DNA of 64,000 nt from Trichomonas vaginalis G3. Taxonomy: Eukaryota > Parabasalia > Trichomonadida > Trichomonadidae. Positions within the stretch are counted from its first letter, which is position 1, and each line of letters begins with the position of its first letter. This document shows positions 33,523-64,000 of this stretch, piece after piece. Below the pieces are notes generated by a model. It was not told where the DNA came from. It did not search any database and saw nothing but the letters and a program-made list of their open reading frames with translations. The stretch lies in the NCBI RefSeq assembly GCF_026262505.1, contig NC_067203.1, positions 4,030,001 to 4,094,000 of the forward strand, given 5' to 3'. The position numbers and the translations under genes were made by a program.

Positions 33523-34146
33523 ATGAGTATAACAACTAATTCATTGAAATCTTTAAAGTTCACTAATTCAGAATTAGAAAATATTTTAGAAAATTTTGGA
33601 GACGGTTCTTATCCAACATATATGCAGAATGTGAAAGAGTTTTCCAGATTGTTGAATGAATTTAAATATAACGGGCCAATTACTAAAAAGGCTATAATGA
33701 GATATTTATATCCCAAAAAAGTTGAAAAACAGGAGAATATTCCTCTTTATGGTCCAGAGGACCTGGGCTCAGAGAGCCTTGAAACACCTCCTGAATATTT
33801 TGAAGAAAAAATTAAACAAGATGAATATTATAACGATGAGATTGAGAAATTGGAACAATTAAGAAATGAAATAGATGAAAAAATTAAGGAATTAAGAGAA
33901 GTTGAAAAATATAATGAAAATGAAGTAGAGGGTTTAATGAATATCCCAGCTTCAGAATCAGAAGTTCAGAAATCTCATGAAGAAAGATATAAAAATTATG
34001 TCTTAGAATCAACACAAAATTTATTAGATGGTGAAATAGATGAAACACTTTCGGAAGAAGGTATTAAATTTATTCGTAAACATAAGTTACAATTTATTGA
34101 TAAGAAGAATACCCTTGTATCTTACTTTCACCCCTCTCGATTCTGA
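33523..34146 (+). CDS. Acidic helical element protein, unknown (E2)
   Basis: A 207-residue protein. The N-terminal about 65 residues are helical; the middle is a coiled-coil-like block (EKLEQLRNEIDEKIKELREVEKYNENEVE) and the rest acidic. The E3 protein 58054-58602 is almost identical from that block onward but clearly diverged before it. The segment PLYGPEDLGSESLET is absent in E3 and is encoded by the double-hairpin module at 33751-33778. The C-terminus here reads past the place where the E3 version stops (FIDE), so the last about 15 residues are probably a frameshift product. Function unknown. Confidence 0.7.
   Translation: MSITTNSLKSLKFTNSELENILENFGDGSYPTYMQNVKEFSRLLNEFKYNGPITKKAIMRYLYPKKVEKQENIPLYGPEDLGSESLETPPEYFEEKIKQDEYYNDEIEKLEQLRNEIDEKIKELREVEKYNENEVEGLMNIPASESEVQKSHEERYKNYVLESTQNLLDGEIDETLSEEGIKFIRKHKLQFIDKKNTLVSYFHPSRF
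33751..33778. repeat. 28-bp double-hairpin module in the 33523 gene
   Basis: GGTCC-AGA-GGACC, then TG, then GGCTC-AGA-GAGCC: two perfect 5-bp-stem, 3-nt-loop hairpins. The orthologous gene in E3 lacks it. Related modules lie at 38624-38651, 45850-45877, 52238-52265 and 63216-63243. Confidence 0.85.
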
Positions 34147-34666
34147 AAATTCAAAAAAGCACTGAAAAACGTGACATATGCAACTAATACGATTAAGAAA
34201 GAAGATCATGATATTTACACAAATTATTATTTAAATAAATGCACAGGTGTTGATAAAGTTTTTGATTTATTAGATAAAATATCAAAAGAAACCATTGGAA
34301 CATATAAAATTTTGTGTGATTGGTTTCATTATTGAAGATACTAATAATGTTTCATATGAAAGAACAGCACCGAAGGAAGACGAAGTGGAAAGGTCTATAC
34401 CATTCGTTATTAAGAACATAAAAGATATGAAAACTTATAAACATTATATTTATTCATTTATTTCAGAAAAAATGGAAGCAACCCATAAAACATCTTCTCA
34501 TCATTTTATAGCTATTCATACATTCCTTTTCAAAGTTGTGAAATTAAATAAGACAGGAATTAGATTTAATGTATCAGGGTACGCATTCTTGAGTAAATTA
34601 AAATGTATTCGTCACGTCGCAGATGATAAAAATTTATGTGTTCTTAATTCATTTTACGGACTTTAA
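34117..34666 (+). pseudogene. Broken copy of the 184-aa element protein (E2)
   Basis: Nearly identical at DNA level to the intact E3 gene 58609-59163, but the start codon region is altered, a base is missing in an A-run near 34145, and a second shift lies near 34318 where E3 has GATTGTGG. From about 34320 the frame is intact to 34666. Product unknown (see 58609). Confidence 0.75.
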
Positions 34667-34707
34667 AAAATAAACTTTATTATTTTATTTTTTTTATTCT
34701 TACATAA

Positions 34708-37700
34708 ATGAACAAAAACGGAACAGCTAAAATGAATGATAATCAAATTAGAGCAGAAGGTAGAAGGTTATTTAAACGCTTCTATAACATTCCTGATGGT
34801 GTTAATCCTAAAACTCGTAGAAGTTATTTAAATGAAGCAATAGATCATATGAAGGGTTTGACATTTCATCAGAAGTGAGAGGTTAGCGAGAATGTTAAAT
34901 GTTAATATTGATTTCTATTATTGTGATCCTCAACCAGAAGACGTGGACATTAAATAAGGTAGACTTTCCATTAGTGGAATCAATAATGATAGATCCAGAA
35001 TTTGAAACAGTAAATATTTTATTAACACAGAGTCCATGTGGAAAACTTCACGCTGACAGAATAACAGACGTTGAAGCACTCACCGGCTATAAAGTTTGCC
35101 CCTTGCAAAGAAGAAGTTTATTCTATCCGTGATGATCCAGAAAGGAAAAACCAAAGAAGATTTTTAAAGCATTGTGAGAAATGTAAAGAAAATAATGGAA
35201 GATTAATTCAAGACGTTCAATTGCAAAAGACACAGCAACCATATGCACCACATATTACGAAACAGAAGATATATCAGTGGTTATTAGCTCATAATTTGCA
35301 GGAATATTATCAAACGACAAGATATTATATTACTTTTGACTTCGAAACATTAGAGACTAAAGAAGAATTACAACTTTCTGAGTGTGCAACTTTGAATGCT
35401 TACTTAAAACCATTCATGGTATCATCAACGGTTAAATTAAACGATAAAACATATACGAGGAATTTTTGCTTAACTTCGAGTGATTCTTTTATTTCTGATT
35501 GGATTGAGTTTTTATTTTCAACCTGTTCATTAGTTGCTAAATCAAATATTGAACAATATGAAGAATTAATGAAGTCGCAAACGGACCAAACGGCGGGGAC
35601 TTTGTCTCATACATTAAATGAAAAAAGAAGGAAGCATTTAAAGAACTTTTAGATGAAGAATTTAATAAAGTGAATATCATAGGTTTTAATTCGGGAAAGT
35701 TTGATTTAAATTTAATTCTTCGTGATTTAAATACTGCAAAATGGAAGATAAAATCAATGCTGGGTTCTTCTTCTCAATTTAAGCAAGTCATAGTAAAGAA
35801 AACAAACTGTCCATATGAATTAAGATTTATTGACATCAGAAATTATATAGCGGGTGGAACATTAGACCAATTCACTCAAGATTTCGGAAACAATAAATCA
35901 CGTGTTAAATCCTTTTTCCCTTATCAATTCATCACATGGGAGAATTACGAAGAAGAATTATATAAAAAGGAACCATTCACTCAAGATTCATTTTATTCAG
36001 CATTAACACAAGAAACAATATCCGATTCAGATTATCAAATATATCTCAATGATGCTAAAAATTTTGAGAATAGATTAGAATATTTTATTCATTATTGCAA
36101 TAAAGACGTTGAAATTATGATTGACCCAATTGATAAAATTATCGAAGAAACATTTGTTTATAAAATTGACATGCTTCATAATCTTTCTTTATCATCGAAT
36201 GCTTCAATGATTCGTTACGCTTAGCATATAAAGACTTTAATCCTAATGAAAATATCCTGAGAAGAAGATGAATCAAGTTTTGAATTAACAAAAAAGTATT
36301 GGAAATATAAAATTGAATCATATAAGAAACAAGATGAAAAAGCAGAAAGGGATACTAAAAAAATGTTTCAATGGATGATTCAATACTATCACGATTTAAT
36401 CCTTTCATCTAAATGCAAAATGTGTGGTAAAGCGTTTACATATGCAAATAAACCAACATTGGATAGAATCGATAATGAAAAACCACATACCAAAGAAAAT
36501 TGTCAGTTAATGTGTTGTTATTGCAATGTCGTAAAATCAAATAAAGATGAAGATGTTCAACGTTTAAGAATCAATTTAAGAAATTATGCATTAAAAAATA
36601 ATTTACCAATGACTTTAGATTCAGTTGAAGCTTATCACATTCTCCGTAATGGAATTACTGGTGGTCTATCAAATGTTCAACATCGTGTTAATCTTAAAGG
36701 AATCACGCACATTAATAAACTTTCATATAATCCAGAAACTAAAACTGTATCAAATGAGGACACCACCAACATTATGACTCATTTCGTTGGAGTTGACTTT
36801 AATTCATTATATCCTTCATCATTTTCATCTAATCCTCATGATTTCATTCAATATACTGACCATAAAATGTATATGCCGGGAAGATTGAATGGTGTTATCA
36901 TTTGTGATACAGCAACAAAGAAAGCAAAAGCACTGGGAATAATTAAGAAGAAAAATACTTTATTCGTGGCTGAAGTAAAGGGTCACATTGATGAAAAATA
37001 CATTAATGATTACATAAACTTTTTACCGATAATAAGAAACTTAGATATTATCACAGATGAAAAAACAATTGGCAGTTTTATGTATAATTACATGAAATCA
37101 AACAATTTACCGGTTGACCAGAAACAGAGAAAATTAACTCAGTTAGCATCAACACACAACCAATATCAACCATTTTCTTCTTATTATCTTTGGTATCTAA
37201 TAGACAGATTTCATTTTATCATTGATGACATTCAATCAATTTTAACATTTACTAAAAACAGTTGTTTTAATGAATTTGCGAACAAATTTATGAACGAAAG
37301 ACAAAAAGCTGAATTAGAAGGAAATAAAGGAAAAAGTTTATTTTGCAAGATTTCACTTAATGGATCATATGGTTACGATGCAATGAATACACAAAATTAC
37401 GCAAAGACTAAAATAATGAATGCACAGAAGGCACGCGTTGCATGTATGTCAAATAAGTTTAAAAACATAAGAGAAATAGGTGAAGATACATATCAAGTGA
37501 TGCTTAAAGATAGATTTTATAGATGTGATACATGTTTACAAGAGGCATTCTTCACTTTAGATAACGCAAAATACTGGTATTTGGTTTTCATTTATGATTT
37601 TATGTATAAATGCATGGATGTTAATCGTTTTCATTTCATTGAAGGTGATACTGATTCATCTTATTGGGCTATTGCTGGCGATCCAAGTCTTCCTAACACT

Positions 37701-38174
37701 CAAGCATTTCAGGCGATTGTAACCGATAAACAATTTTATGATAAAAACATTTTCAAATTCGCACCTTTTGATTTCTTCTGTTTTGATGAGAAATTTAAAC
37801 CTAAATTAAAGAATAAAGCTGAAGAAAAAGCACATGAGAAAAAATTATTGGGTTTAGCAATTGAGAAACAAGGTGATAACATGGTTGCTTTATGTCCTAA
37901 GTGTTATACATCATTCAACGGTTCAATTGATGGAAGTGATTTTAAAAAGATTGCACAAAAAATGAAAGGTGTTAGTTTACGACAAAATAAACAATTAACA
38001 CCTAAAAATTATTTGGATATAATAAATGATAAATTGATATTTGATGGTCAGAATATTAATTTACAACTTAAAAACGGGTCAATGACTCGCTTAACAATCG
38101 GTAAGACTGCATTAACAGGAGCACACACTAAGGCTGTATGTTGTGAAAATGGATGTTGTATGCCATTTATTTAA
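34708..38174 (+). pseudogene. polB-like: Protein-primed family B DNA polymerase with inserted HNH module, frameshifted (E2)
   Basis: Over 1,100 codons in total. In order: a basic N-terminus (MNKNGTAKMNDNQIRAEGRR), a CxxC-type zinc site (KVCPFCKEE-like), Exo I FDFETLE (35335), Exo II IIGFNSGKFDLNLI (35675), Exo III YCNKDVEIM (36100), an HNH-like module (36405-36545), Pol A VDFNSLYPS (36793), Pol B SLNGSYGYD (37357) and Pol C EGDTDSSY (37640). The C-terminus has CPKCYTSF and CCENGCC. The 3' part from 36363 to 38174 is open. The 5' part has about six 1-3 nt shifts. E3 carries a close copy with different breaks, so an ancestral intact gene is clear. Confidence 0.9.
36405..36547 (+). other. HNH/endonuclease VII-like module inside PolB (E2)
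   Basis: Encodes SSKCKMCGKAFTYANKPTLD, then RIDNEKPHTKENCQLMCCYC, then NVVKSNKD. The CxxC...LDRID...H...N-C...CxxCN spacing is the HNH-endonuclease zinc-finger pattern. It lies between Exo III and Pol motif A. Same in E3 at about 60990-61133. Confidence 0.85.
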
Positions 38175-38276
38175 TAAAATACCACAGAAGAGACAAAAGG
38201 AACCGTTAATGATGGTTTTGATACTATGATTCAAAGAGGTGGGCACCCTTAAAACATTGATTTTATTTTTATATAA

Positions 38277-39791
38277 ATGAATAACACAGATTTAAAAATT
38301 TTAATTGATGATTTAGTATTTAATCAAAATTTTCTTAATTATTATGATTTAAAAGCATATCTCCAAAAATATAATAATAATATAACGGGTGATGATATGG
38401 AATATTATTATCCATATTATAAAAATGAAATTTTGAAATATCATAATAAAATAATTTCTGAAATTAAAGACAAAATTAAAAATAATGAATATATAAAGGG
38501 AAAAACTAAATCACAGCTTAAACAGTTGAAAGATTTCAAAAATAAAGTATTAACAGAAGAAGATATTGATGAATTATATAAATTATATAATCCTGAGCCG
38601 CAAAAAAAGGAACAAAAACAAAAGGAACAAAACACCCAGGTCCTTCAGACCATAAATGATGCACAAGCTTTAATTTATGATTCATTAGTTAAACCATATT
38701 CAGCCCGACTTTTAAATGAAGATCAACTTTTGGAATTCATCCTTCAACATAAACTCGAAGCGGGAAAGTATATCAAACCTTTATATACAGCATATTTAAA
38801 ACAAATGAATAGAATACATCCAGAATTAATGAAGGAAGGAATGAAATCCAAAATCAAAGCAGATAAAATTAAACCACTTACAACACCAAAACCTCCAACA
38901 GTAGTACCTCCTCCTTCAGTTAATCCTTCATCATTCACTTTATTATATCCATTTCAAACATTAAAGAAACAAAAAGATTTTAAAAAGGATTTCAAGATAT
39001 TAAATAAACCAATTGACCCGAAAATTCAACCATTAAAGGAAAAATTTAGTCGACCTTCATTTGCTCCATATCCATATTCATACGAAATCGATCATCTGGA
39101 ATATTCAAAAGGAAACGTTACTTATTTATTTGCCATTAACATTAACACTAGATATTTATATTGCATTCCGGTGAAAGGGAAAACAGAACAGGAAACAAGA
39201 AGAGCTATACAATACTTACTAGATCATGAAAGAGTAGATAATATCAGGGGTGATGGTGATAAAGGATTTCAGGCAGCTATGACTCATTATTTCCCACAAA
39301 TTAATTTTTACTTTTCATCCTCTCCATATACGTTTCATAATAAAATAGTTGATGCGGTAATGAGAACTCTTAGAGATGCGTTAGGGGTTAACGGTCAGAT
39401 ATACTGGGATGGAAATCATGACTCCATCATACAGCAGTTAGTATATTATTACAATAATACATGGCATAGAACTATAAACATGAAACCGGTGGAAATGAAA
39501 AATGATATTTCAAAAGAATGGGAATATATTAGAAAGCAAATGGAAAGGTTAAATGATGTTAAACGTGAACAAATTAATTCGGGGCTCATGAATTTTAAAC
39601 AAGGGGATAAAGTTTTGATTCATCTCGATTATGGAAAAACTGATAAATCAATGACAAAAAGAAGACGAAGATTTGACACAATAGCTGAATTTGTTAGATA
39701 TATTAACGGCAATGCATTAGTTGAAGTTGACAATAAATTAATAGAAATTCCGATTTATTTTATTACTCCATTATATTTAAATAATATTTAA
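38277..39791 (+). CDS. Maverick RVE-type integrase (E2)
   Basis: A 504-residue protein. Residues 1 to about 245: helical, charged N-terminal domain with a low-complexity linker (PKPPTVVPPPS). Residues about 260-400: RNase H-fold core with YSYEIDHLEY (first Asp), RGDGDKGF (second Asp) and HNKIVDAVMRTLRDAL (third acid is Asp, not Glu). Residues about 440-504: SH3/chromodomain-like tail (FKQGDKVLIHLDYG). It inserts element ends, making 6-bp target duplications. The double-hairpin module at 38624-38651 encodes NTQVLQT inside the N-terminal domain. The frame is intact. Confidence 0.92.
   Translation: MNNTDLKILIDDLVFNQNFLNYYDLKAYLQKYNNNITGDDMEYYYPYYKNEILKYHNKIISEIKDKIKNNEYIKGKTKSQLKQLKDFKNKVLTEEDIDELYKLYNPEPQKKEQKQKEQNTQVLQTINDAQALIYDSLVKPYSARLLNEDQLLEFILQHKLEAGKYIKPLYTAYLKQMNRIHPELMKEGMKSKIKADKIKPLTTPKPPTVVPPPSVNPSSFTLLYPFQTLKKQKDFKKDFKILNKPIDPKIQPLKEKFSRPSFAPYPYSYEIDHLEYSKGNVTYLFAININTRYLYCIPVKGKTEQETRRAIQYLLDHERVDNIRGDGDKGFQAAMTHYFPQINFYFSSSPYTFHNKIVDAVMRTLRDALGVNGQIYWDGNHDSIIQQLVYYYNNTWHRTINMKPVEMKNDISKEWEYIRKQMERLNDVKREQINSGLMNFKQGDKVLIHLDYGKTDKSMTKRRRRFDTIAEFVRYINGNALVEVDNKLIEIPIYFITPLYLNNI
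38624..38651. repeat. 28-bp double-hairpin module in the integrase gene (E2)
   Basis: GGAACAAAACACC, then CA, then GGTCCTTCAGACC. The second hairpin is nearly perfect, the first degenerate. Present also in the E3 integrase (63216-63243). Confidence 0.8.
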
Positions 39792-39811
39792 TTTTTTTTA
39801 TTTTGTAAGAA

Positions 39812-40075
39812 ATGAGTGACAACAAAGCAGTCAAGAGTCCAGACGATGAATATATAAAGAAACTAAACAGAATTAAATCAAAAATATGCTATTACAAAAA
39901 GAAGCCACAATGCGGTGGAGCTGAAAACGATGAAGAAATAATCGAAAAATTAGAAACTTACCGTTCAATCCTTAAACTGAGTGAAGCAAAAATAAAAGAA
40001 TTTAATAGAATAAATAAATTGATTGGAAGAGATGAATTTAATAAAGATGAATTTTTAAACTCAATCCAAATTTAA
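39812..40075 (+). CDS. Small helical element protein (87 aa)
   Basis: An 87-residue charged helical protein (KLNRIKSKICYYKKKPQCGGAE, then helices). Starts 20 bp after the integrase stop with TTATTTTGTAAGAA before the ATG. Overlaps the convergent small gene by 4 bp. Not recognised. Confidence 0.65.
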   Translation: MSDNKAVKSPDDEYIKKLNRIKSKICYYKKKPQCGGAENDEEIIEKLETYRSILKLSEAKIKEFNRINKLIGRDEFNKDEFLNSIQI

Positions 40076-40236
40076 TTTTTATTCCTCTTTGACAACATCT
40101 CTCTTTCCATCATTACTGCATAACCACATTTTCTCAATTTTAGTGGTTTGTTATTTTTAGCAAGTTCTCGCATCATTTTTATCGTTTCCTCCCTTGTTAT
40201 GATTCGTGGTAAATTTTGAGCTTGTGGGGTATTCAT
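40072..40236 (-). CDS. Very small basic element protein (54 aa)
   Basis: 54 residues: MNTPQAQNLPRIITREETIK, then MMRELAKNN, then a basic tail. The leader TTTTTATCATAA precedes the start. It converges on and overlaps the end of the 39812 gene by 4 bp. No family recognised; the leader and compact packing support it. Confidence 0.55.
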   Translation of the reverse strand: MNTPQAQNLPRIITREETIKMMRELAKNNKPLKLRKCGYAVMMEREMLSKRNKN

Positions 40237-40319
40237 TTATGATAAAAATAAAAATTTAAATTATGCCGTTCTAAAGTTTGTGACAACATGACATTTTGAC
40301 AACAGTCCCGGAAATGATT

Positions 40320-40650
40320 TGTCATGACTTCATCGTAATGAGTGTAAATGACCCAAAAATAATGTTTTCATTAATGGTTTCAGGTTATTCAATAATGAAT
40401 TATTTTTGAAGAACTGAAGGTGTCACTACGTCACCATGTGTCACTCGGTTATTTAACTTCTCTGAAAAAATGAGACAACATGACATTTAGACAACATCAC
40501 AGGATTAATGAGGAAGGCATTTATGAATTATTTTTGAAGAACTGAAGGTGTCACTACGTCACCATGTGTCACTCGGTTATTTAACTTCTCTGAAAAAATG
40601 AGACAACATGACATTTAGACAACATCACAGGATTAATGAGGAAGGCAAAA
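40320..40650. repeat. Two direct 128-bp repeats downstream of the primase-helicase gene
   Basis: Units start at about 40395 and 40523 and are practically identical. They carry GGTGTCACTACGTCACCATG and GTGTCACTCGG, i.e. three spaced GTCAC sites, and TCTGAAAAAATGAGACAACATG. They are inverted relative to the four 160-bp units at 43031-43670. Before them, TCGTAATGAGTGTAAATGAC followed by CCAAAAATAATG matches an E1 intergenic repeat. Confidence 0.9.
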
Positions 40651-40668
40651 ATAAATTCCAATCATACT

Positions 40669-43030: not shown

Positions 43031-43720
43031 ACTGCATCAAATTTTCGTAAATGTTGTCTAAATGTCATGTTGTCTCATTTTTTCAGAGAAGTTAATTAAC
43101 CGAGTGACACATGGTGACGTAGTGACACCTTCAGTTCTTCAAAAATAATTAATTATTGAATGACCTGAAAACATTAACATAAACATTAACGATAAAATTT
43201 ATTTCCAGGACTGTTGTCAAAATGTCATGTTGTCTCATTTTTTCAGAGAAGTTAATTAACCGAGTGACACATGGTGACATAGTGACACCTTCAGTTCTTC
43301 AAAAATAATTAATTATTGAATAACCTGAAACCATTAACGTAAACATTAACGATAAAATTTATTTCCAGGACTGTTGTCAAAATGTCATGTTGTCTCATTT
43401 TTTCAGAGAAGTTAATTAACCGAGTGACACATGGTGACATAGTGACACCTTCAGTTCTTCAAAAATAATTAATTATTGAATAACCTGAAACCATTAACGT
43501 AAACATTAACGATAAAATTTATTTCCAGGACTGTTGTCTAAATGTCATGTTGTCTCATTTTTTCAGAGAAGTTAATTAACCGAGTGACACATGGTGACAT
43601 AGTGACACCTTCAGTTCTTCAAAAATAATTAATTATTGAATAACCTGAAAACATTAACGTAAACATTAACATAAACATTAACGTAAACATTAACGTAAAC
43701 ATTTATTTCTGTAGTTCATC
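43031..43720. repeat. Four tandem 160-bp iteron-like repeats plus a short-repeat tail
   Basis: Units align at 43071, 43231, 43391 and 43551 (exact 160-bp spacing). Each holds CCGAGTGACACATGGTGACR followed by TAGTGACACC, i.e. three GTGAC sites 8-10 bp apart, and an A/T-rich TAATTAATTATTGAAT segment. After the last unit ACATTAACGTAA/ACATTAACATAA repeats every 12 bp (43664-43706). Inverted relative to the copies at 40395-40650. Confidence 0.95.
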
Positions 43721-43770: not shown

Positions 43771-45909
43771 TCAATAAATGCGGTACCATGCGAATACAGT
43801 CATAAATGGAGGCATATAATCTTCACCCAAGCCTGTTGGATTTGTTGTGAAAGTGTGTGAATGATTTCCTGTGGTTCCACAGAAAATACCTGCGCTTGAA
43901 TCTACTGGGTCGCTTGAAATATCATATCTATCCATTCCCTGTCTATCCGAACCTGCTGCAAGATTTCTATAACCTCTTTTTGTTATTGAATGTGAATGAT
44001 TACCTGTTGTGTTTGTAGTTCCTGTATGAGTGTGCGGTGGAAGGTTTGCTTCAGTAATTTTCTTCGAACCTCCTGTTTGCTTTGAAGAGTTCGCACAATA
44101 GAGGAATTTATCTACAATCTGTTCCCACGCACCAAAACCTAAAACTTTTGAAGGATTTGTTGAGTTCATTGACGTATAAATAGAACCAATGGGGTAAATC
44201 ATCTCAAGAATTGTATTTAATCCATTATGAATATTGAATTTATTATATAATATTGAATTTGGGTGAGTATTTAAAACTGGTCTTGTTATCAATATTAACG
44301 TATTATTTTTGAAAATTGCTTTTCTAACATCTTGAAATTTTGTGATTTCAGACCAGTTTCTTCCATCACTACTGATATTTACTAAATCACCACATCCTAA
44401 AGCAATGAAATACCCATCAATATAAAATAAATTTGTAAATCTATAATTTTGAGTAAATTTTGGAGTGAATGAATAAACCAATTCCCAATTTGATAAATCC
44501 TGTGATAAATAAATATGTCTGTTATAACTTACAGGATATGAATAGACCATTTCACCTGAAACGAGAACATAAACATTTGATCCATAACATAAAGCTTCAA
44601 TGTCTCCATCAGCTTGAAAAATTTGTTCAAATTGACCTTGTGATATTGAAGATGATCTATAAATTTTATCATTTTGTAGGATAAAATACATGTTGTTAAT
44701 GTAATACCACTTACTTGTATAATCAATTTTCAAATCTGATGACATCATACTAAACATATAATAATTTATCCCATCCTCACTAATGAAAATTTGATTGACT
44801 TCATAAATTAGTACCCATTTATTATTAACACATCTAATAGGATTATTTGGATATTTAAATTTAGCATCTTGATTTAAATTACATTTGAACCATTGGATAC
44901 AATCGAATGAATAACAAGGGCAAAAATCATCTTCAACCGTTATCATTCCCATAAATTTACCGTTATTATATTCAACATATAAAATTATTGGATTAATGAT
45001 TGGCTTTCGTGTATCAGGATTCAAAACAGATGGAGTAAATGATTCATAGTTTTTAAAATCATTTGTTTTAAAATAATAAAGCACTCCAGCTGTATAAAAT
45101 AAATACATGGTCACTCCATCGAAACATATCCATTCAAAAGAATCTATATCAAAGGTTTTATCTGATGATTTCATAAAATTTAAAAATGGCGGAGTAAAAT
45201 AGACCTCTGATTGTTTTATTTCTTCATTAACAAATGATATATTAGCTTTCTTCATTAACTCACTATCCACACATTCCTTATCCGCTTTCTTCTCTAACGC
45301 AGCAGCAACACATTCCTTATCCGCTTTAAGGTCTAAACATCCTGAAACCCATCCTGTATCAGCTTTAGTTTTTAAAATCTTTGATGTCCATTCATGATAC
45401 CATTCAACCATTTCTTTAATTTCATTATCTTTTTCGTTAACATATTCCTTATCCGCTTTCTTCTCTAACGCAGCAGCAACATATTCCTTATCCGCTTTCT
45501 TCTCTAACGCAGCAGCAACACATTCCTTATCCGCTTTCTTCATTATGTCATTTAGGAAACCTTTTATGAATTCCTCATTTAAATTAAATCTTCCAATCTT
45601 CAAAACTTTAGGAAATGCATTTAATGCGTAATATCTCTGTTCTTCTGGTGGAATTGATGTTATATCATCCGTTATTCCTTTAATTTTTGAATTCATAAAT
45701 AAAATTTCTTTTATATTTGATATCACTGCACCACCTTTGCAAACGAATTCGAAATGGTCATTTTTCAATACTATCTCCAAATCTCCATATTTCAACCTTT
45801 GCGTTTGTTCTGCCGTCTTTGAATTATATGCATATATGGCGTATGTAATGGTCTGAGGGACCTGGGTGCTTTGTGCCTTAAGTTGTTGTGGTTGCTGTTG
45901 TTTAATCAT
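43771..45909 (-). CDS. Fibre/spike protein with phage tail-collar-like tip (E2)
   Basis: A 712-residue protein. N-terminal domain (about 1-125), then shaft repeats of ALEKKADKEYVAA type, with EKDNEIKEMVEWYHEWTSKIL and TGWVSGCLDLKADKE in common with the E1 fibre. A middle beta-propeller-like region (about 240-560) has repeated W/Y-rich strands such as EDGINYYMF and SSDGRNWSEI, similar to exo-alpha-sialidase-type Asp-box repeats. The tip begins near residue 570 (YPIGSIYTSMNS), then TGGSKKITEANLPPHTH, and ends DYMPPFMTVFAWYRI. Likely the host-recognition spike; sialidase-like activity cannot be claimed. The module at 45850-45877 encodes STQVPQT near the N-terminus. Confidence 0.88.
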   Translation of the reverse strand: MIKQQQPQQLKAQSTQVPQTITYAIYAYNSKTAEQTQRLKYGDLEIVLKNDHFEFVCKGGAVISNIKEILFMNSKIKGITDDITSIPPEEQRYYALNAFPKVLKIGRFNLNEEFIKGFLNDIMKKADKECVAAALEKKADKEYVAAALEKKADKEYVNEKDNEIKEMVEWYHEWTSKILKTKADTGWVSGCLDLKADKECVAAALEKKADKECVDSELMKKANISFVNEEIKQSEVYFTPPFLNFMKSSDKTFDIDSFEWICFDGVTMYLFYTAGVLYYFKTNDFKNYESFTPSVLNPDTRKPIINPIILYVEYNNGKFMGMITVEDDFCPCYSFDCIQWFKCNLNQDAKFKYPNNPIRCVNNKWVLIYEVNQIFISEDGINYYMFSMMSSDLKIDYTSKWYYINNMYFILQNDKIYRSSSISQGQFEQIFQADGDIEALCYGSNVYVLVSGEMVYSYPVSYNRHIYLSQDLSNWELVYSFTPKFTQNYRFTNLFYIDGYFIALGCGDLVNISSDGRNWSEITKFQDVRKAIFKNNTLILITRPVLNTHPNSILYNKFNIHNGLNTILEMIYPIGSIYTSMNSTNPSKVLGFGAWEQIVDKFLYCANSSKQTGGSKKITEANLPPHTHTGTTNTTGNHSHSITKRGYRNLAAGSDRQGMDRYDISSDPVDSSAGIFCGTTGNHSHTFTTNPTGLGEDYMPPFMTVFAWYRIY
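45850..45877. repeat. 28-bp double-hairpin module in the fibre gene (E2)
   Basis: Plus strand: GGTCTGAGGGACC, then TG, then GGTGCTTTGTGCC. Read on the coding strand it is the same module as in the integrase (ending GGTCCCTCAGACC) and is translated in the same frame to give TQVPQT. Confidence 0.85.
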
Positions 45910-45933: not shown

Positions 45934-46644
45934 TTAATCCGTTATCTCATCACCTATTTTTTCTATTTGAAATTGCCATAATATTTCATTCATGAATTCT
46001 AAATCACAATCAAATAGGTCAGTTACTCTAAATTTAATATTTGATAAATCTTTTGAATGAAGAATAAATGAATTCCCGGATAATTGAAACGGATATGATA
46101 AAGAAAATGTGTTTAAGTTGATGGATAAAATGTTTTGTATTGATGGGTAAGAGTTAGGGTCTAATGTTTGATGTGAAAATCTCATTGGGGTATTAACTTT
46201 ATCACATTTGATTAAAATGAAATTGGAACCAGTGTCAGAATACAAAACATCCCCAACATCTTTTTCAAAATTTAATATCCCCAACAATGAACGAAGATGA
46301 GGAGTACAAAATTTAATTTTCAGCGGAAATTTAATAAGGTTATTTATTTCATCAAGTTCAAAAAGTTTATCAGGTTTTGATTTAAAATTTTCTTCATACC
46401 ATACGATAAATGATTCATTTAAATAACTTAAAATCATGTTAATATCCCATTTCGCTATCACATTATTTATATACATATCATACGTTTTTTCATGGTCATC
46501 TTTAATAAATGATATATAATCTGAAGGGTCTAAAAGAATGGGATTAAATTTACCACTCACAGAAACGAGAGTAACATTATAAATTCCGCTAACTGTTAAA
46601 TTTAATTCACAGTTATTATTCGAAATAATATTGATAATTGACAT
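45934..46644 (-). CDS. Probable minor capsid/penton-class protein (E2)
   Basis: A 236-residue beta-rich protein with no membrane segment. Strand-like pieces include CELNLTVSGIYNVTLVSV at the N-terminus and NIKFRVTDLFDCDLEF near the end. Size and position next to the fibre gene fit the single jelly-roll penton that would anchor a fibre, but this is inference. Divergent from 46664, with 19 bp between starts. Confidence 0.5.
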   Translation of the reverse strand: MSIINIISNNNCELNLTVSGIYNVTLVSVSGKFNPILLDPSDYISFIKDDHEKTYDMYINNVIAKWDINMILSYLNESFIVWYEENFKSKPDKLFELDEINNLIKFPLKIKFCTPHLRSLLGILNFEKDVGDVLYSDTGSNFILIKCDKVNTPMRFSHQTLDPNSYPSIQNILSINLNTFSLSYPFQLSGNSFILHSKDLSNIKFRVTDLFDCDLEFMNEILWQFQIEKIGDEITD

Positions 46645-48449: not shown

Positions 48450-48450
48450 T

Positions 48451-51890: not shown

Positions 51891-52261
51891 ATGAAACCAA
51901 TTTTAAAAATAAATAAACAGGAGGAAGAAATAAATGAAAGTGAAAATGTTCAACAAAAAAAACGTTGTTAAACCAATTACTGAAACAAAATTTTTCATCT
52001 GTTGAAGAATTTAATGACTATTATGCTAATAAAAAATTATTTGAAGAATTGACAACGTGTAAATTGAATAAAATGTTTAAAGTTGATGGATTCAAAATTT
52101 CAAAAATAAAAGGAGTGGTTAGTTTGAAATCTATTCCTCAATCAAGAATCACCTCATTAATGAAAATAGATGATTTAACAAAAAGAATAGAAATTATTGA
52201 AGAGCGAATAAATCAAATTATTGATTTCATAAATCATGACTCGTTGAGCCCGGGTCCTTAA
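51891..52261 (+). pseudogene. Small charged protein with an A-run frameshift (E2)
   Basis: ATG 51891 starts MKPILKINKQEEEINESENV. An A8 run at 51953-51960 shifts the frame into LLNQLLKQNFSSVEEFNDYY and on to 52261. Helical, charged, about 123 residues. The stop and last codons lie in a degenerate double-hairpin module (52238-52265). Unknown function; the shift in a homopolymer could be an assembly error. Confidence 0.6.
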
Positions 52262-52265
52262 AGCC
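52238..52265. repeat. Degenerate double-hairpin module at the 3' ends of convergent genes
   Basis: GACTCGTTGAGCC, then CG, then GGTCCTTAAAGCC. Same 13+2+13 layout with weaker stems; overlaps the stop codons of the 51891 and 52737 genes. Confidence 0.6.
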
Positions 52266-52737
52266 CATCACTGAGTTCAAGGTTATATTCATCAAATATT
52301 TCATTATTAAATGCAACTTCTGCTAGTTTATTTATTTTTTCAATACGATCATTTGAAAGTCTATCGTTTAATTTTTTCTGAAGTTTTTCATTTTCTAGTT
52401 CTGAAACTTTATTTGGATGATATTTAAACTCGTTAAATTCTTTTTCCTCAGTTTTGATCATTAATTTACAAAGAACTTTTGTGGTTGGAATTCGTTTAAA
52501 CCATTTATCATTAATATTTGTTATAAATTCAATATTCGGAATTAATTCCCAAATTTTTGCATTTTCAATTAATTTATTATCAAATGCAAAAGCAATAGGT
52601 TTAATATTAAACTTACCTTTATAATATAAACTTTCTACATAATCATCGAAATAAACATCTACTTGTTTAATATTTTCAAGAATTGGTGAAAGAACATCCA
52701 TTAATTGATTGACGGTTACGAATCTTGATCCACTCAT
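52258..52737 (-). CDS. Conserved small element protein of FxxVN family (E2 copy)
   Basis: A 159-residue protein with FVTVNQLMDVLSPILENIK at the start and FDDYVESLYYKGKFNIKPIAFAF, matching the E1 protein 10643-11062 (FISVNKYM, NIEPVKFA). The C-terminal third is a charged helix. First leftward gene from the right repeat, as 33523 is the first from the left. Unknown function. Confidence 0.75.
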   Translation of the reverse strand: MSGSRFVTVNQLMDVLSPILENIKQVDVYFDDYVESLYYKGKFNIKPIAFAFDNKLIENAKIWELIPNIEFITNINDKWFKRIPTTKVLCKLMIKTEEKEFNEFKYHPNKVSELENEKLQKKLNDRLSNDRIEKINKLAEVAFNNEIFDEYNLELSDGL

Positions 52738-54451: not shown

Positions 54452-54953
54452 TTCAAATTTTTTTTTTCACTCAGTGTTTGTGTGAAGAATTTGATCTGAA
54501 TAAGCTTGCCATCAGACGAAGATTCTCCCATTGTTCGCATGATTAAACGTTAACTCTCAGGGGACACAAATGCGTATTTGGTTTTAGAATTGTAAAACAT
54601 TTTTAATTTTTATTTGATTTTTGAAGTGCGTTTATTTACACTCATGTAAAGCATGTGCCTGTATCTATGGGTGATGTGGTTCTAGTAAAAATGAATGTAT
54701 ATTTAAATTCTAAATATCTCGATCAATTATATTCTAATTTGCTAACTTTTTCTTTCTAGAGTCTTCCAGCAATAGCAGATATCAGAGTCTGAACTTTAAG
54801 TCTTAAATCAGCTTTTTCATATTTTCATATTTTTGCTGAACCTTGATTTTTTGAATTTTTTGATGTATTTCTCAACTATTTCTATTGGAATCTCGAATAT
54901 TTTAATCCATCATAGAATTATGAACTGCACTCAAAAATAATTTTTTTATATTG
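54452..54953. other. Host spacer with a short minus-strand orphan frame
   Basis: On the minus strand an ATG at 54541 opens about 30 codons (MRTMGESSSDGKLIQIKFFT, then QTLSEKKN) running out of frame into the 54451 gene. Possibly the truncated start of another gene or a chance frame. The rest is AT-rich, with nothing else seen. A TGCACTCAAAAATAA stretch lies about 25 bp before ATG 54954. Confidence 0.35.
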
Positions 54954-56915: not shown

Positions 56916-57247
56916 TTTAATTATTTATATAAAGTTTGTTTTATTGTTTCTTATAATAAATAATATATATACAATAATCTTTTTTCATTTTCTAGTTTTT
57001 TTGAAATAAGTGAATGTTCTCAATTATATTTTAATTTAAATTAACACTTTTTGTGCGTTTTTTAACAGGCTTCAATCCTGTTAAATATGCAGCAAAAGTG
57101 TAATTCTCAGGCTTGTGATTATTTTTGCTTTTAATGCCGAACAGCATGTGAATCAAAAATAATCGAATGAGTGAGAATTATAAAATATAAATCAATTTGA
57201 AAATGTATTGTGGTAAGTTTTATTAAAACTCATTATTTTATTGTGAT
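56916..57247. other. Host intergenic spacer before E3
   Basis: AT-rich. Contains a possible inverted pair (AACAGGCTTCAATCCTGTT near 57064-57082) but no gene. The expected E3 target duplication would start TGTGAT (57242-57247); its partner is outside the window. Confidence 0.4.
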
Positions 57248-57390
57248 AGTAGTATATGAGTGCGGGTTGTGTGACTTTTTTTGTTTCATCTATATATAGA
57301 CGATGCATTAAAATATATTTATTTATAAATCATTAAAAAATTAACATTAATTTTAAAATAATTTATTTTTTTATCTTTTATAAAAGAAGC
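57248..57390. repeat. E3 left terminal repeat (length uncertain)
   Basis: The first about 36 bp are related to the E2 repeat; the rest is different, including two copies of CTATATATAGA-type palindromes (near 57288 and 57391). The right copy lies outside the window, so the limit is a guess. Confidence 0.6.
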
Positions 57391-57399
57391 TATATATAG

Positions 57400-57690
57400 A
57401 TGATGTCAGATATTCCGCGATTAATTAAACATTGTTTAAATCCTGAATGGGTTAAACTTCAATTTAAAAATGAAGATTGTGAATTATTAAATGAATATGA
57501 AAGCCAAAATAAGCTAATGAGGTATAAATATAATGATAAAGAATATTTAATTTCATGGAATCAATGGAGTCATAATCAAAGACCTCATAAACGAGAAGAA
57601 GAAATTGAAAATAATGAAATGGAAATCATTGATGACATTAAAGAGGATGGAATCCTAAATTTTGTAGAAAAACCTTTAGAACTAAGTTAG
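57400..57690 (+). CDS. Small element protein (96 aa), E3-specific
   Basis: 96 residues: helical, with LIKHCLNPEWVKLQFKNEDC, a middle NDKEYLISWNQWSHNQRPHK and an acidic tail. Two ATGs (57400, 57403). Not recognised. A decayed tandem copy follows at 57700-57965. No counterpart in E2. Confidence 0.6.
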   Translation: MMSDIPRLIKHCLNPEWVKLQFKNEDCELLNEYESQNKLMRYKYNDKEYLISWNQWSHNQRPHKREEEIENNEMEIIDDIKEDGILNFVEKPLELS

Positions 57691-57699
57691 GAGATATAA

Positions 57700-57965
57700 A
57701 CGTAGAGTATTAAATCTGAATATCTTAAACATTTATTTAAAAGGAAGACTGTGAATTATTAAACGTTAATGAATATGAAAATGCTAAATCAAAACTGAGA
57801 TATAATATATTGGAAGTGATGAAAGGTGTAAAGATAAAGATAAAGTTTATACAGTTTCATATAATAACTGGCACACGTTAGGGATAAGAAAACATTTAAG
57901 AGATTATGGTAAAAGTTCCGAATTCTTCAAATCTAGTATGTACGAGAGAGTATGAAGATTAGAAA
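57700..57965 (+). pseudogene. Decayed tandem copy of the 57400 gene
   Basis: DNA similar to the first gene in shifting frames: SEYLKHLFKK, DCELLNVNEYENAKSKLRYN and later VYTVSYNNWHT. Several stops. Indicates a local duplication in E3. Confidence 0.55.
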
Positions 57966-58053
57966 TCATGATATAAACATAATGAAAAAAAAAAATAAAA
58001 AATATTAAAATTCATGTCTTACATTTTTTGAATAATTTATTTTTTTAATTCGT

Positions 58054-58602
58054 ATGAAAATGAGTGTCAAGACTAACGACGTTAAAAAATTGGGATTCAC
58101 AAACGAGGAAATAAAGGATATATTAGAGGAGGCGAGTTATGAAGTTAATAAATATTATTTAAGAAATTGTCAAAAATTCGCGGAGTTATTAAATGATTTA
58201 GATTATGATGGAAAAATGAATAAAGATGATGTTATAAATTTCTTATATCCCACATCTGAAGAAGAAAAACCTAAAGAACCTGATGTTTTCCCTGAATATT
58301 ATGAAGAACGGATTAAAGATGATGAATATGATGAAATTGAAAGACTGGAAAAAATAAGAGATGAAATAGATGAAAAAATTAAGGAATTAAGAGAAGTTGA
58401 AAAATATAATGAGAATGAAGTAGAGGGTTTAATGAATATCCCAGCTTCAGAATCAGAAGTTCAAAAATCTCATGAAGAAAGATATAAAAATTACTTTTTG
58501 GAATCTACTAAAAATTTATTAGATGGTGAAATAGATGAAACACTTTCAGAAGAAGGCACAAAATTTATTCATAAACATAAGTTACAATTTATTGACGAAT
58601 GA
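58054..58602 (+). CDS. Acidic helical element protein (E3)
   Basis: A 182-residue protein. The second half (IDEKIKELREVEKYNENEVE onward) is almost identical to the E2 protein 33523-34146; the first about 95 residues are only distantly similar. It lacks the module-encoded insertion of E2. It ends HKLQFIDE, probably the natural end of the family. A T-rich box (TTTTTTTAATTCGTATG) precedes it. Function unknown. Confidence 0.75.
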   Translation: MKMSVKTNDVKKLGFTNEEIKDILEEASYEVNKYYLRNCQKFAELLNDLDYDGKMNKDDVINFLYPTSEEEKPKEPDVFPEYYEERIKDDEYDEIERLEKIRDEIDEKIKELREVEKYNENEVEGLMNIPASESEVQKSHEERYKNYFLESTKNLLDGEIDETLSEEGTKFIHKHKLQFIDE

Positions 58603-58608
58603 GATACC

Positions 58609-59163
58609 ATGTATATACTTTCACCTCCTCTTGATTCTGAAAAATTCAAAAAAGCACTGAAAAATGTAACATATGCAACAAATACGATTAAGAAAGAAGA
58701 CCATGATATTTACACAAATTATTATTTAAATAAATGTACAGGTGTTGATAAAGTTTTTGATTTGTTAGATAAAATATCAAAAGAAACAATTGGTACATAT
58801 AAAATTTTATGCGATTGTGGTTTCATTATTGAAGATACTAATAATGTTTCATATGAAAGAACAGCACCGAAGGAAGACGAAGTTGAAAGGTCTATACCAT
58901 TCGTTATTAAGAATATAAAAGATATGAAAACTTATAAACATTATATTTATTCATTTATTTCAGAAAAAATGGAAGCAACCCATAAAACATCATCTCATCA
59001 TTTTATAGCTATTCATACATTCCTTTTCAAAGTTGTGAAATTAAATAAGACAGGAATTAGATTTAATGTATCAGGGTACGCATTCTTGAGTAAATTAAAA
59101 TGTATTCGTCACGTCGCAGATGATAAAAATTTATGTGTTCTTAATTCATTTTATGGACTTTAG
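58609..59163 (+). CDS. Conserved element protein (184 aa), unknown
   Basis: Starts MYILSPPLDSEKFKKALKNV. Mixed alpha/beta with a CDCG pair near residue 68 and a histidine-rich stretch (THKTSSHHFIAIHTF, about residues 124-138). I checked for a cysteine-protease triad because Mavericks usually encode one; an H and C are present but not in a recognisable order. Intact here, broken in E2 (34117-34666). It starts 6 bp after the previous stop, so probably co-transcribed. Confidence 0.7.
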   Translation: MYILSPPLDSEKFKKALKNVTYATNTIKKEDHDIYTNYYLNKCTGVDKVFDLLDKISKETIGTYKILCDCGFIIEDTNNVSYERTAPKEDEVERSIPFVIKNIKDMKTYKHYIYSFISEKMEATHKTSSHHFIAIHTFLFKVVKLNKTGIRFNVSGYAFLSKLKCIRHVADDKNLCVLNSFYGL

Positions 59164-59955
59164 CCCTGGACTTTAAAAAAATAAACTTTATTTTTATTTA
59201 TTTTTTAATTTTTTATTCTTACATAAATGAACAAAAACGGAACAGCTAAAATGAATGATAATCAAATAAGAGCCGAAGGTAGAAGGTTATTTAAACGCTT
59301 CTATAACATTCCTGATGGTGTTAATCCTAAAACTCGTAGAAGTTATTTAAATGAAGCCATAGATGCATATGAAGGATTTGACATTTCATCAGAAAGTGAG
59401 AGGTTAGCAAGAATGTTAAACGTTAATATTGATTTTATTATTGTGACCCTCAACCAGAAGACGTAGACATAAATAAGGTAGACTTTCCATTAGTGGAATC
59501 AATAATGATAGATCCAGAATTTGAAACAGTAAATATTTATATATTAACACAGAGTGGTGGAAAACTTCACAGAATTACAGACGTTGAAGCACTCACAGGA
59601 TATAAAGTTTGCCCCTTTTGCAAAGAAGAAGTATATTCTATCCGTGATGACCCAGAAAGGAAAAACCAAAGAAGATTTTTAAAACATTGTGAGAAATGTA
59701 AAGAAAATAATGGAAGATTAATTCAAGACGTTCAATTGCAAAACACACAACAACCATATGCACCACATATCACGAAACAGAAGATATATCAATGGCTATT
59801 AGCTCACAATTTGCAGGAATATTATAAACCAACAAGATATTATATTACTTTTGACTTCGAAACATTAGAGACTAAAGAAGAACTTCAACTTTCTGAATGT
59901 GCAACTTTGAACGCTTACTTAAAACCATTTATGGTATCATCAACTGTCAAAATAA

Positions 59956-60019
59956 AGCCGCAAACGGACTCTTTGAGTCCTGAAGGTCTTTCAGACCGAA
60001 GCGGCGAGGTCGTAGACCG
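59956..60019. repeat. Palindrome-rich 64-bp insertion in the E3 PolB
   Basis: Between GCCGC (59957) and GCGGC (60001) lie GGACTC-TTT-GAGTCC (59966-59980) and GGTCT-TTC-AGACC (59985-59997); GGTC-GTA-GACC (60008-60018) follows. Absent from the E2 gene; keeps the frame. Belongs to the same hairpin class as the 28-bp modules. Confidence 0.85.
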
Positions 60020-60150
60020 TGATAAAACATTTACGAGGAATTTTTGCTTAACATCAAGTGATTCGTTCATTCTGATTGGATTGAATTTTTATTTTCAACC
60101 TGTTCATTAGTTGCTAAATCAAATATTGAACAATATGAAGAATTAATGAA

Positions 60151-60185
60151 GCCGCAAACGGACCAAACGGCGGGGACTTTGTCCC
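60151..60185. repeat. GC-rich hairpin in PolB shared by E2 and E3
   Basis: GCCGCAAACGGACC, then AAACGG, then GGGAC-TTT-GTCCC (60173-60185, perfect stem). The E2 copy is at 35578-35608, where the stem has one mismatch (GTCTC). Confidence 0.75.
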
Positions 60186-62856
60186 ATACATTAAATGAAA
60201 AACAGAAGGAAGCATTTAAAGAACTTTAGATGAGGAATTCAATAAAGTGAATATCATAGGTTTTAATTCGGGAAAGTTTGATTTAAATTTAATTCTTCGT
60301 GATTTAAACACTGCAAAATGGAAAATAAAATCAATGCTGGTTCTTCTTCTCAATTTAAGCAAATCATTGTAAAGAAAACAAACTGTCCATATGAATTAAG
60401 ATTTATTGACATCAGAAATTATATAGCGGGTGGGACATTAGACCAATTCACTCAAGATTTCGGAAACAATAAATCACGTGTTAAATCCTTTTTCCCTTAT
60501 CAATTCATCACATGGGAGAATTACGAAGATGAATTATATAAAGTGGAACCATTCACTCAAGATTCATTTTATTCAGCATTAACTCAAGAAACAATATCCG
60601 ATTCAGATTATCAAATATATCTCAATGATGCTAAAAATTTTGAGAATAGATTAGAATATTTTATTCATTATTGCAATAAAGACGTTGAAATTATGATTGA
60701 CCCAATTGATAAAATTATTGAAGAAACATTTGTTTATAAAATTGACATGCTTCATAATCTTCTTTATCATCGAATGCATCAATGATTCGTTACGCTTTAG
60801 CATATAAAGACTTTAATCCTAATGAAAATATATCCTGAGGAAGAGATAGAATCAAGTTTTGAATTAACAAAAAAGTATTGGAAATATAAAATTGATTCAT
60901 ATAAGAAACAAGATGAAAAAGCAGAAAGGGATACTAAAAACAATGTTTCAATGGATGACTATCAATACTATCACGATTTAATCCTTTCATCTAAATGCAA
61001 AATGTGTGGTAAAGCGTTTACATATGCTAATAAACCAACATTAGATAGAATCGATAATGAAAAACCACATACCAAAGAAAATTGTCAGTTAATGTGTTGT
61101 TATTGCAATGTCGTAAAATCAAATAAAGATGAAGATGTTCAACGTTTAAGAATCAATTTAAGAAATTATACATTAAAAAATAATTTACCAATGACTCTAG
61201 ATTCAGTTGAAGCTTATCACATCCTCCGTAATGGAATTACTGGTGGTTTATCAAATGTTCAACATAGAGTAAATCTTAAAGGAATCACGCACATTAATAA
61301 ACTTTCATATAATCCAGAAACTAAAACTGTATCAAATGAGGACACTTCCAACATTATGACTCATTTCGTTGGTGTTGACTTTAATTCATTATATCCTTCA
61401 TCATTTTCATCTAATCCTCATGATTTCATTCAATATACTGACCATAAAATGTATATGCCGGGAAGATTGAATGGTGTTATCATTTGTGATACAGCAACAA
61501 AGAAAGCAAAAGCACTGGGAATAATTAAGAAGAAAAATACTTTATTCGTGGCTGAAGTAAAGGGTCACATTGATGAAAAATACATTAATGATTACATAAA
61601 CTTTTTACCGATAATAAGAAACTTAGATATTATCACAGATGAAAAAACAATTGGCAGTTTTATGTATAATTACATGAAATCAAACAATCTACCAGTTGAC
61701 CAGAAACAGAGAAAATTAACTCAGTTAGCATCAACACACAACCAATATCAACCATTTTCTTCTTATTATCTTTGGTATCTAATAGACAGATTTCATTTTA
61801 TCATTGATGATATTCAATCAATTTTAACATTTACTAAAAACACTTGTTTTAATGAATTTGCGAACGAATTTATGAATGAAAGACAAAAGGCTGAATTAGA
61901 AGGAAATAAAGGAAAAAGTTTATTTTGCAAGATTTCACTTAATGGATCATATGGTTACGATGCAATGAATACACAAAATTACGCAAAGACTAAAATAATG
62001 AATGCACAGAAGGCACGCGTTGCATGTATGTCAAATAAGTTTAAAACATAAGAGAAATAGGTGAAGATACGTATCAAGTGATGCTCAAAGATAGATTTTA
62101 TAGATGTGATACATGTTTACAAGAGGCATTCTTCACTTTAGATAACGCAAAATACTGGTATTTGGTTTTCATTTATGATTTTATGTATAAATGCATGGAT
62201 GTTAATCGTTTTCATTTCATTGAAGGTGATACTGATTCATCTTATTGGGCAATCGCTGGCGATCCAAGTCTTCCTAACACTCAAGCATTTCAAGCAATTG
62301 TTACCGATAAAAAATTTTATGATAAAAACATTTACAAATTCGCACCTTTTGATTTCTTCTGTTTTGATGAGAAATTTAAACCTAAATTAAAGAATAAAGC
62401 TGAAGAAAAAGCACATGAGAAGAAGTTATTGGGTTTAGCAATTGAGAAACAAGGTGATAACATGGTTGCTTTATGTCCTAAGTGTTATACTTCATTCAAC
62501 GGTTCAATTGATGGAAGTGATTTTAAAAAGATTGCACAAAAAATGAAAGGAGTTAGTTTACGACAAAATAAACAATTAACACCTAAAAATTATTTGGATA
62601 TAATAAATGATAAAGTAATATTTGATGGTCAGAATATTAATTTACAACTTAAAAACGGGTCAATGACTCGCTTAACAATCGGTAAGACTGCATTAACAGG
62701 AGCACACACTAAGGCTGTATGTTGTGAAAATGGATGTTGTATGCCATTTATTTAATAAAATGCCACAGAAGAGACAAAAGGAACCGTTAATAATGGTTTT
62801 GTACTATGATTCAAAGAGGTGGGCACCCTTAAAACATTTATTTTATTTTTATATAA

Positions 62857-64000
62857 ATGGATAACACAGATTTAAAAATTTTAATTGATGATTTAGTACT
62901 TAATCAAAATTTTCTTGATTATTATGATTTAAAAGCATATCTCCAAAAATATAATAAAAATATAACGGGTGATGATATGGATTATTATTATTCGTATTAT
63001 AAAAATGAAGTTTTGAAATATCATGATAAAATAATTTCTAAAATTAAAGACAAAATTAAAAATAATGAATATTCAAAGGGAAAAAGTAAATCACAACTTA
63101 AACAATTGAAAGATTTCAAAAATAAAGTATTAACAGAAGAAGATATTGATGAATTATATAAATTATATAAATTATATAATCCTGAGCCGCAAAAACCAAA
63201 GGAACAAAAACAAAAGGTGCAAAACGCCCAGGTCCTTCAGACCATAAATGAAGCACAAGCTTTAATTTATGATTCATTAGTTAAACCATATTCAGCCCGA
63301 CTTTTAAATGAAGATCAACTTTTGGAATTCATCCTTCAACATAAACTCGAAGCGGGAAAGTATATCAAACCTTTATATACAGCATATTTAAAACAAATGA
63401 ATAGAATACATCCAGAATTAATGAAAGGAGGAATGAAATCCAAAACTTCATCATCCAAATCAAAGCAGATAAAATTAAACCACTTGCAACACCAAAACCT
63501 CCAACGACAGTACCCTCCTCCTTCAGTTAATCCTTCGTCATTCACTTTATTATATCCATTTCAAACATTAAAGAAGCAAAAAGATTTTAAAAAGGATTTC
63601 AAGATATTAAATAAACCAATTGACCCGAAAATTCAACCGTTAAAGGAAAAATTTAGTCGCCCTTCATTTGCTCCATATCCATATTCATACGAAATCGATC
63701 ATTTAGAATATTCAAAAGGAAACGTTACTTATTTATTTGCCATTAACATTAACACCAGATATTTATATTGCATTCCGGTGAAAGGGAAAACAGAACAGGA
63801 AACAAGAAGAGCTATTCAATACTTACTAGATCATGAAAGAGTAGATAATATAAGGGGTGATGGTGATAAAGGATTTCAGGCAGCTATGGCTCATTATTTC
63901 CCACAAATTAATTTTTACTTTTCATCCTCTCCATATACGTTTCATAATAAAATAGTTGATGCGGTAATGAAACTCTTAGAGATGCGTTAGGGGTTAACGG
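62857..64000 (+). pseudogene. Maverick RVE integrase, frameshifted and cut by the window end (E3)
   Basis: Residues 1 to about 370 match the E2 integrase very closely, including YSYEIDHLEY and RGDGDKGF and the third-acid region HNKIVDAVM. Then two bases (GA) present in E2 are missing at about 63969, giving an early stop at 63990; the following bases resume the E2-like sequence. A second local difference in the linker (about 63450-63500) changes the frame twice. The double-hairpin module lies at 63216-63243. Confidence 0.85.
63216..63243. repeat. 28-bp double-hairpin module in the integrase gene (E3)
   Basis: GGTGCAAAACGCC, then CA, then GGTCCTTCAGACC. Orthologous to 38624-38651; the first arm differs at three positions while the second is identical. 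Confidence 0.8.

Follow-up and report, generated by a model that had tools for sequence, protein, structure and literature searches.

Hairpin Sites in the Window

The window, a stretch of 64,000 nucleotides of the Trichomonas vaginalis G3 genome (contig NC_067203.1, positions 4,030,001 to 4,094,000), contains genes that belong to two or more Maverick-like elements. Those of E1 start at about 30.9 kb and those of E3 at about 58 kb, and short double hairpins occur in and beside them. Eleven candidate Maverick sites, S1 to S11, have a common layout of a 13-nt hairpin, 2 nt, a 13- or 11-nt hairpin and a final T, with stems that are different yet complementary. Unit length is 27-31 bp; half-units of 14-15 bp also occur. 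Hairpin sites are found on large contigs of the 180.9-Mb genome, within Maverick genes, and the units have been found in unrelated genes as well as in intergenic DNA.

The first-pass annotation listed five 28-bp double-hairpin stretches, all of which are where it placed them, with stems of varying quality. Scored as pairs out of 5+5 on the better strand with G.U allowed, the stems range from perfect Watson-Crick pairing (5+5, at 33751) through 5+5 with three pairs of G.U type (45850) to 5+4 (38624 and 63216) and 4+5 (52238). S1 (33751..33778, plus strand) is a 13+2+13 double hairpin within the open reading frame (ORF) 33523-34146, whose 207-aa product is of unknown function. S5 lies on the minus strand in the integrase ORFs of both elements, at 38624..38651 in E1 (ORF 38277-39791, where minus is the TG strand) and at 63216..63243 in E3 (ORF 62857-63990). 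S6 (45850..45877, plus strand), again a double hairpin, falls close to the N-terminal end of the fibre-like ORF 43771-45909, which is coded on the minus strand. Integrase and fibre read the module in the same phase, as had been noted, giving TQVLQT in the former and TQVPQT in the latter. An assembly error is an unlikely source of the modules, since protein P0002 has the same peptide under a TVAG_ name, a form that we take to denote the older T. vaginalis gene set (P- and L-numbers label the proteins and loci compared). S7 (52238..52265, minus strand) is an older hairpin pair at the meeting ends of two convergent genes, ORF 51965-52261 (plus strand) and a DUF4108 gene at 52258-52737 (minus strand), both of which have their stop codon inside the hairpin array. 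The degenerate module annotated there is present, and it belongs to a hairpin array that is longer in other copies.

The module set is real and extends beyond the five stretches: there are additional sites, units of 13+2+11, half-units of 14-15 bp and one nested cluster. S2 is without a unit in E1 (34655..34664, plus strand, at the stop-codon (3') end of ORF 34295-34666), has a single 14-bp hairpin unit in E3 (59154..59167, plus strand), and holds 29-31 bp in L001-L004, L011, L042 and L051, with two alternative second hairpins. S3 (59957..60018, plus strand), a 63-bp insert that is present in E3 and missing in E1, consists of a GCCGC..GCGGC cluster enclosing two hairpins and then GGTCGTAGACC; its fold energy is -26.6 kcal/mol (z -3.0). 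S4 reads GCCG..CGGC and then GGGACTTTGTCCC in E3 (60151..60185, plus strand) and has an E1 counterpart at 35574-35608; no empty copy of S4 was seen. At three further sites the window has the empty state: S8 at 43334..43335 (CCAT/TAACG, intergenic, in one window repeat), S9 at 52085..52086 (in ORF 51965-52261) and S10 at 46489..46490 (in ORF 45934-46644). S11 is a strong double hairpin, GAACCCAGAAGGGTTC-GG-CGTCTCGAAGAGACG, at L031:2900-2950.

Unit Layout and Shared Hairpins

Read with TG at the centre, the units at S1, S2, S5, S6 and S7 fit the frame AT-GG-N9-CC-TG-GG-N9-CC-TT, with small deviations such as a first hairpin of 12 nt at S2. Inner pairs are complementary in 27 of 33 cases, against 12.6 when arms are shuffled among 11 hairpins, a test whose p value is only indicative, because part of the hairpins were identified by their pairing and the rest by their position, and some are related.

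Several hairpins recur from site to site. Two S2 alleles carry different hairpins at one position, GGCACTTTGTGCC and GACTCTCTGAGTC, and S2 and S7 have in common GGCACTTTGTGCC plus a GGACTTTA hairpin. The hairpin GACTCT[T/C]TGAGTC is common to S3, S8 and the S2-alternative, GCGGCG[A/G]GGTCGTAGACC to S3 and S10, and GCCGCAAACGGAC to S3 and S4. S5 and S6 share GGTCTGAAGGACC, which a hairpin at S3 resembles closely; the likeness between S5 and S6 spans 42 bp, longer than the 28-bp module. In our interpretation, S3 looks like a unit of the S10 type with an extra double hairpin nested in its first loop.

Filled, Half-Filled and Empty Copies

The genome was searched for copies of individual sites, with 40 scored candidates each, and the loci compared form a small sample of about 190 kb. 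Clean filled and empty copies can be paired at five sites, with inserts of 30 bp at S6 and S7, 31 bp at S8 and 27 bp at S9 and S10. These pairs support the earlier proposal that the module is gained or lost as a unit in unrelated genes, like a movable micro-repeat, and the edges at S6-S10 are clean where gradual divergence would have argued the reverse. The example originally given, the E3 orthologue of the 33523 gene, does lack the module, but its flanks have diverged, so that this pair alone gives no clean edge.

Among the 40 scored copies of S6, 17 were sequenced: four are empty at GTAA/TAAG, two hold 15 bp, nine hold 12 bp and two hold 11 bp. Short states are over-represented here because the query was the empty state; the 30-bp state is found in the window and in 13 loci picked for the pattern. 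At S7, L020 cleanly has a 30-bp double hairpin that is missing from the window, L024 has 14 bp (one hairpin) and L059 has a longer degenerate array, while all 40 scored copies have the length of the window, the state of the query. L007 has a 31-bp double hairpin at S8, and its flanks are clean when it is aligned with two repeats of the window; the same S8 unit is found in L030 and L035, where the left flank differs. The repeats themselves are tandem, about 160 bp long, at 43069-43654 and 40374-40632, with inverted copies about 3 kb apart, and it is one such repeat that holds the S8 unit in L007. S9 is an in-frame unit of 27 bp in L013, L018 and L024, with 26 bp in L036, and is missing from the window, L020 and L039. 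The S10 unit, 27 bp of in-frame 13+2+11 sequence, occurs in L027 only; the window and at least L005, L006, L007, L009, L030, L038 and L086 are without it.

The remaining sites vary in similar ways. S1 has a 30-bp state in six distinct places and a 15-bp state in four; by length, 35 of its 40 scored copies are full, four exceed the empty query by 13-14 bp and one falls short of it. With the E1 state of S2 as query, the 40 scored copies fall within a few bases of the query length, a comparison of length only. The filled S3 query returned 40 identical copies out of 40 scored, and therefore the filled form itself has been amplified. At S5 the module is missing in L097 and shortened in L098, L099 and L101, in a linker that is rich in repeats and frequently carries small indels. 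The coding units at S1, S6, S9 and S10 (30, 30, 27 and 27 bp) are in frame, and a few 11- and 26-bp variants break it. Unit size is probably intrinsic, given that S7 and S8, which are free of frame selection at the unit, have 30 and 31 bp.

In the 15-bp state of S1, the outer arms of the two perfect hairpins pair imperfectly with each other as a single hairpin, which favours an origin in place: as Mavericks replicate, template switching or fold-back synthesis would self-copy a short arm, and Maverick recombination would spread the results, with no mobile unit involved. The constant shape with stems differing by site points the same way, as do the two different hairpins of equal length that occupy one position at S2. 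Yet identical hairpins stand at unrelated sites, the inserts comprise two hairpins and are nearly constant in length, filled and empty copies meet at clean edges, and the empty sites of S9 and S10 offer no arm to copy. Formation in place is, on this evidence, rather unlikely.

Abundance in the Genome

The first-pass annotation had made its claim depend on an excess over a control, and the claim stands: the pattern GG-N9-CC-YR-GG-N9-CC has 1,291 matches in the genome against 50 for the reversed control. Likewise, GGTCCNNNGGACC occurs at 154 genome sites against 2 for the reversed control, and AAGCCGCAAACGGAC occurs 115+100 times against 0 in the control. All 42 places examined among 50 listed for the double pattern lie in four Maverick gene flank contexts; most of the genome excess therefore reflects Maverick amplification, not independent insertions.

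A strict scan, which accepted only Watson-Crick pairs and asked for at least nine of them, GC-rich stems and a spacer of 2-3, was run on 39 Maverick loci (118 kb) and found 17 double hairpins where 0.1 would be expected. Nine of them are at sites used for choosing the loci and eight elsewhere (three at S9, two at S8 and one each at the S2-alternative, S10 and S11). The same scan found no double hairpin, against 0.25 expected, in 20 random genome stretches (40 kb), of which at least one (L107) matches the fibre gene in part. Its single hit in the window is the double hairpin at 33751. The GG/CC pattern has four matches in the window against 0-1 in 20 Markov sequences, and GC-rich 5-bp hairpins number 17 there (control median 7, highest 18).

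Two genome patterns for other stems, matched by letters only, gave 12 matches against 37 in the control and 52 against 3, with no clear new context. By letters alone, these matches are mutants of known contexts, an unrelated repeat (GGAAAGCC...), pieces of poly-A-side hairpins and single sequences. IMG/VR yielded no integrase relative; its two exact 17-mer matches, in GC-rich DNA (52% and 62%), are apparently fortuitous. The sequence GGCACTTCGTGCC at 2436, 2508 and 26831 was set aside because it is there the core of a single longer hairpin that adjoins poly-A tracts, outside the Maverick genes studied. That longer hairpin (GGGGCT..GGCACTTCGTGCC..AGCCCC) recurs by poly-A tracts at 2421-2530 and 26800-26890 of the window and forms a separate repeat family.

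Direction of Change and Decay

Outgroup comparison shows that this lineage acquired both S1 and S6: S1 is missing from P0206, an outgroup protein of the 33523 gene, and from the E3 orthologue, and the outgroup fibre P0100 begins MLKNQIDYATYAYN, without the S6 module. S6 may have been derived from S5. The states of S6 are scattered over its tree (9 changes against a shuffled mean of 12.8); good support is confined to 4 of 25 inner branches, and the tree therefore gives no direction of change; such scatter would be expected if Mavericks recombine.

Units shrink by 15-18 bp, and at S1 the shrinkage lies between CAGAG repeats. The second stem of S6 is perfect in several copies (GGCGC-TTT-GCGCC). 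Copies of S5 and S6 lose pairs, and the compensatory stem changes that the first-pass annotation proposed to look for did not appear: neither site shows two-sided compensation. A structural RNA signal, one of the possibilities originally raised, finds no favour in these copies. At both S5 (integrase) and S6 (fibre) the antisense strand forms the stronger fold and the mRNA strand the weaker, which speaks against an RNA role there, and pairs are lost without compensation. Selection on one strand at S6, hinted at by 21 non-Watson-Crick cells out of 80 that are all G.U on the TG strand, was dropped as an idea, since S5 has 6 mismatches in 60 cells.

The hairpins might instead be transcript-end or other regulatory signals of the Mavericks. 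S7, with the stop codons of both convergent genes in hairpins, and S2, at a stop codon, are suitably placed for such a function, but S1, S3, S5, S6, S9 and S10 lie within ORFs. Copies that lack the unit are frequent at several sites, stems decay, and an Rfam scan of the window gave no match, making a regulatory function very improbable.

Probable Origin and Mobility of the Units

The units are probably non-autonomous double-hairpin micro-elements that enter beside AT without a clear target duplication, then decay and shrink, and that are confined, within the sample, to T. vaginalis Mavericks. Four of the five clean sites (S6, S7, S8 and S9) have AT where the unit was inserted, the AT dinucleotide frequency being 0.123; over all eleven sites the figure is 7/11, which is weaker and counts sites without a known empty copy. 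No clear target-site duplication was found, the empty and filled pairs at S6, S7, S9 and S10 giving an ambiguous repeat of at most 1-3 bp.

Several observations weigh against micro-elements of this kind. The AT rule was noticed post hoc, and the S10 insertion does not follow AT. Independent events are few, about ten. S3, S4 and S10 form a separate class among the sites, the flanks of S11 in L031 align to the window without a clean edge, and some empty S6 copies may be deletions, given the scatter of states over the poorly supported S6 tree. A loose scan of the window by structure only, with composition ignored and G.U allowed, gave 104 hairpin pairs against 66-106 in 20 controls and thus no enrichment. 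A Pfam scan of 18 window ORFs revealed no moving enzyme; no HUH/Y1 transposase is among these ORFs, and the genome was not searched for one. Finally, the integrase relative P0148, 66% identical, aligns without a gap through the module peptide of S5, so the segment may be an old part of the integrase and perhaps in part native protein sequence.

The alignment with P0148 would also suit an explanation without any hairpin element, in which short gene conversion, or a selected peptide (QxAQVLQTI) common to integrase and fibre, accounts for the likeness of S5 and S6. That their similarity runs on past the 28-bp module is in keeping with it. Against this, S1, S2, S7, S8, S9 and S10 have different peptides or none, the second stem is perfect in several S6 copies, and the fibre outgroup is without the module. 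Conversion or a shared peptide is accordingly an improbable account.

If the units are indeed micro-elements, each would enter the DNA in folded, single-stranded form beside an AT dinucleotide. Mavericks probably replicate by strand displacement, and entry would most plausibly take place during that replication or through a structure-recognising enzyme; a folded single strand entering in the course of strand displacement would fit the AT, the lack of duplication and the confinement to Mavericks. The units themselves would encode nothing and be moved non-autonomously, and Maverick amplification has multiplied them. After insertion, stems decay and units shrink, probably through slippage or hairpin deletion; the coding copies that last are mostly those whose length is divisible by three and that fall in a linker, a tail or an end of the protein.

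Other Features of the Elements

Near the end of the fibre gene, L035 and L005 have more GC-rich inverted repeats; they include GCGTTCAATGAACGC and, within an indel of 39-48 bp, a long hairpin with imperfect pairing. The fibre-like protein (43771-45909) has a C-terminal domain that matches the C-terminus of phage baseplate Gp10 (PF21939, E 1.4e-24), though the element is in a eukaryote. An HNH endonuclease match lies near the start of the type B polymerase ORFs of E1 (36363-38174) and E3 (60822-62051) and is possibly a nested homing element.

Relation to Known Elements

No known system fits the units fully; the nearest in kind are mitochondrial double-hairpin elements and GC clusters, Rickettsia palindromic elements (RPEs), REP/IS200 hairpins and translational bypass inserts. 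Mitochondrial double-hairpin elements and GC clusters are short GC-rich hairpin inserts, scattered among close relatives, for which the enzyme is not known (PMC2800124). The Trichomonas units resemble these repetitive hairpin-forming elements, and the GC clusters of yeast, in having two short adjacent hairpins and a scattered presence and absence between close relatives. The mitochondrial elements reside in organelle DNA, whereas the Trichomonas units belong to a nuclear genome and its virus-like elements, hardly vary in length and include coding copies that stay in frame.

RPEs are palindromic inserts in frame within unrelated genes (PMC10969869), as are the units at S1, S6, S9 and S10. The resemblance to RPEs drawn in the first-pass annotation holds as one of working, not of build: RPEs are bacterial, about 150 bp long and have a conserved peptide per family, whereas the Trichomonas units have 27-31 bp and peptides that differ between sites. 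REPINs and the terminal hairpins of IS200/IS605, also bacterial, are paired short hairpins by a short fixed flank, with single-strand processing (PMC6006769). The Trichomonas units are alike in pairing and in a short fixed flank, but their hairpins are smaller and they have no conserved tetranucleotide, only AT in four of five clean sites. Nor do they have the terminal inverted repeats with target-site duplication of a miniature inverted-repeat transposable element. The translational bypass inserts of Magnusiomyces mitochondria form hairpins. They are likewise many and short and lie in protein-coding genes (PMC5009743), but they disrupt the frame and need compensating translation, whereas the coding inserts of Trichomonas are mostly multiples of three.

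No prior description of such units in Trichomonas or Mavericks was found in the open-access literature. Tentatively, they may represent a mobile element defined by shape, in which a folded double hairpin of fixed 13+2+13/11 layout is copied or recognised while its stem sequences turn over. Living inside a large virus-like element, it would be a parasite of a parasite and, as far as the literature was searched, the first such micro-element in a nuclear or virus-like DNA genome.

Short hairpin elements are an old puzzle of mitochondrial genomes, with no enzyme known and comparisons of single events scarce. The abundant Mavericks of T. vaginalis allow filled, half-filled and empty copies to be compared at near-identical flanks, which makes the entry and exit of units directly testable. 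If recognition by shape is true, single-stranded replication intermediates would be the likely entry route, and the units would be a source of small in-frame protein insertions.

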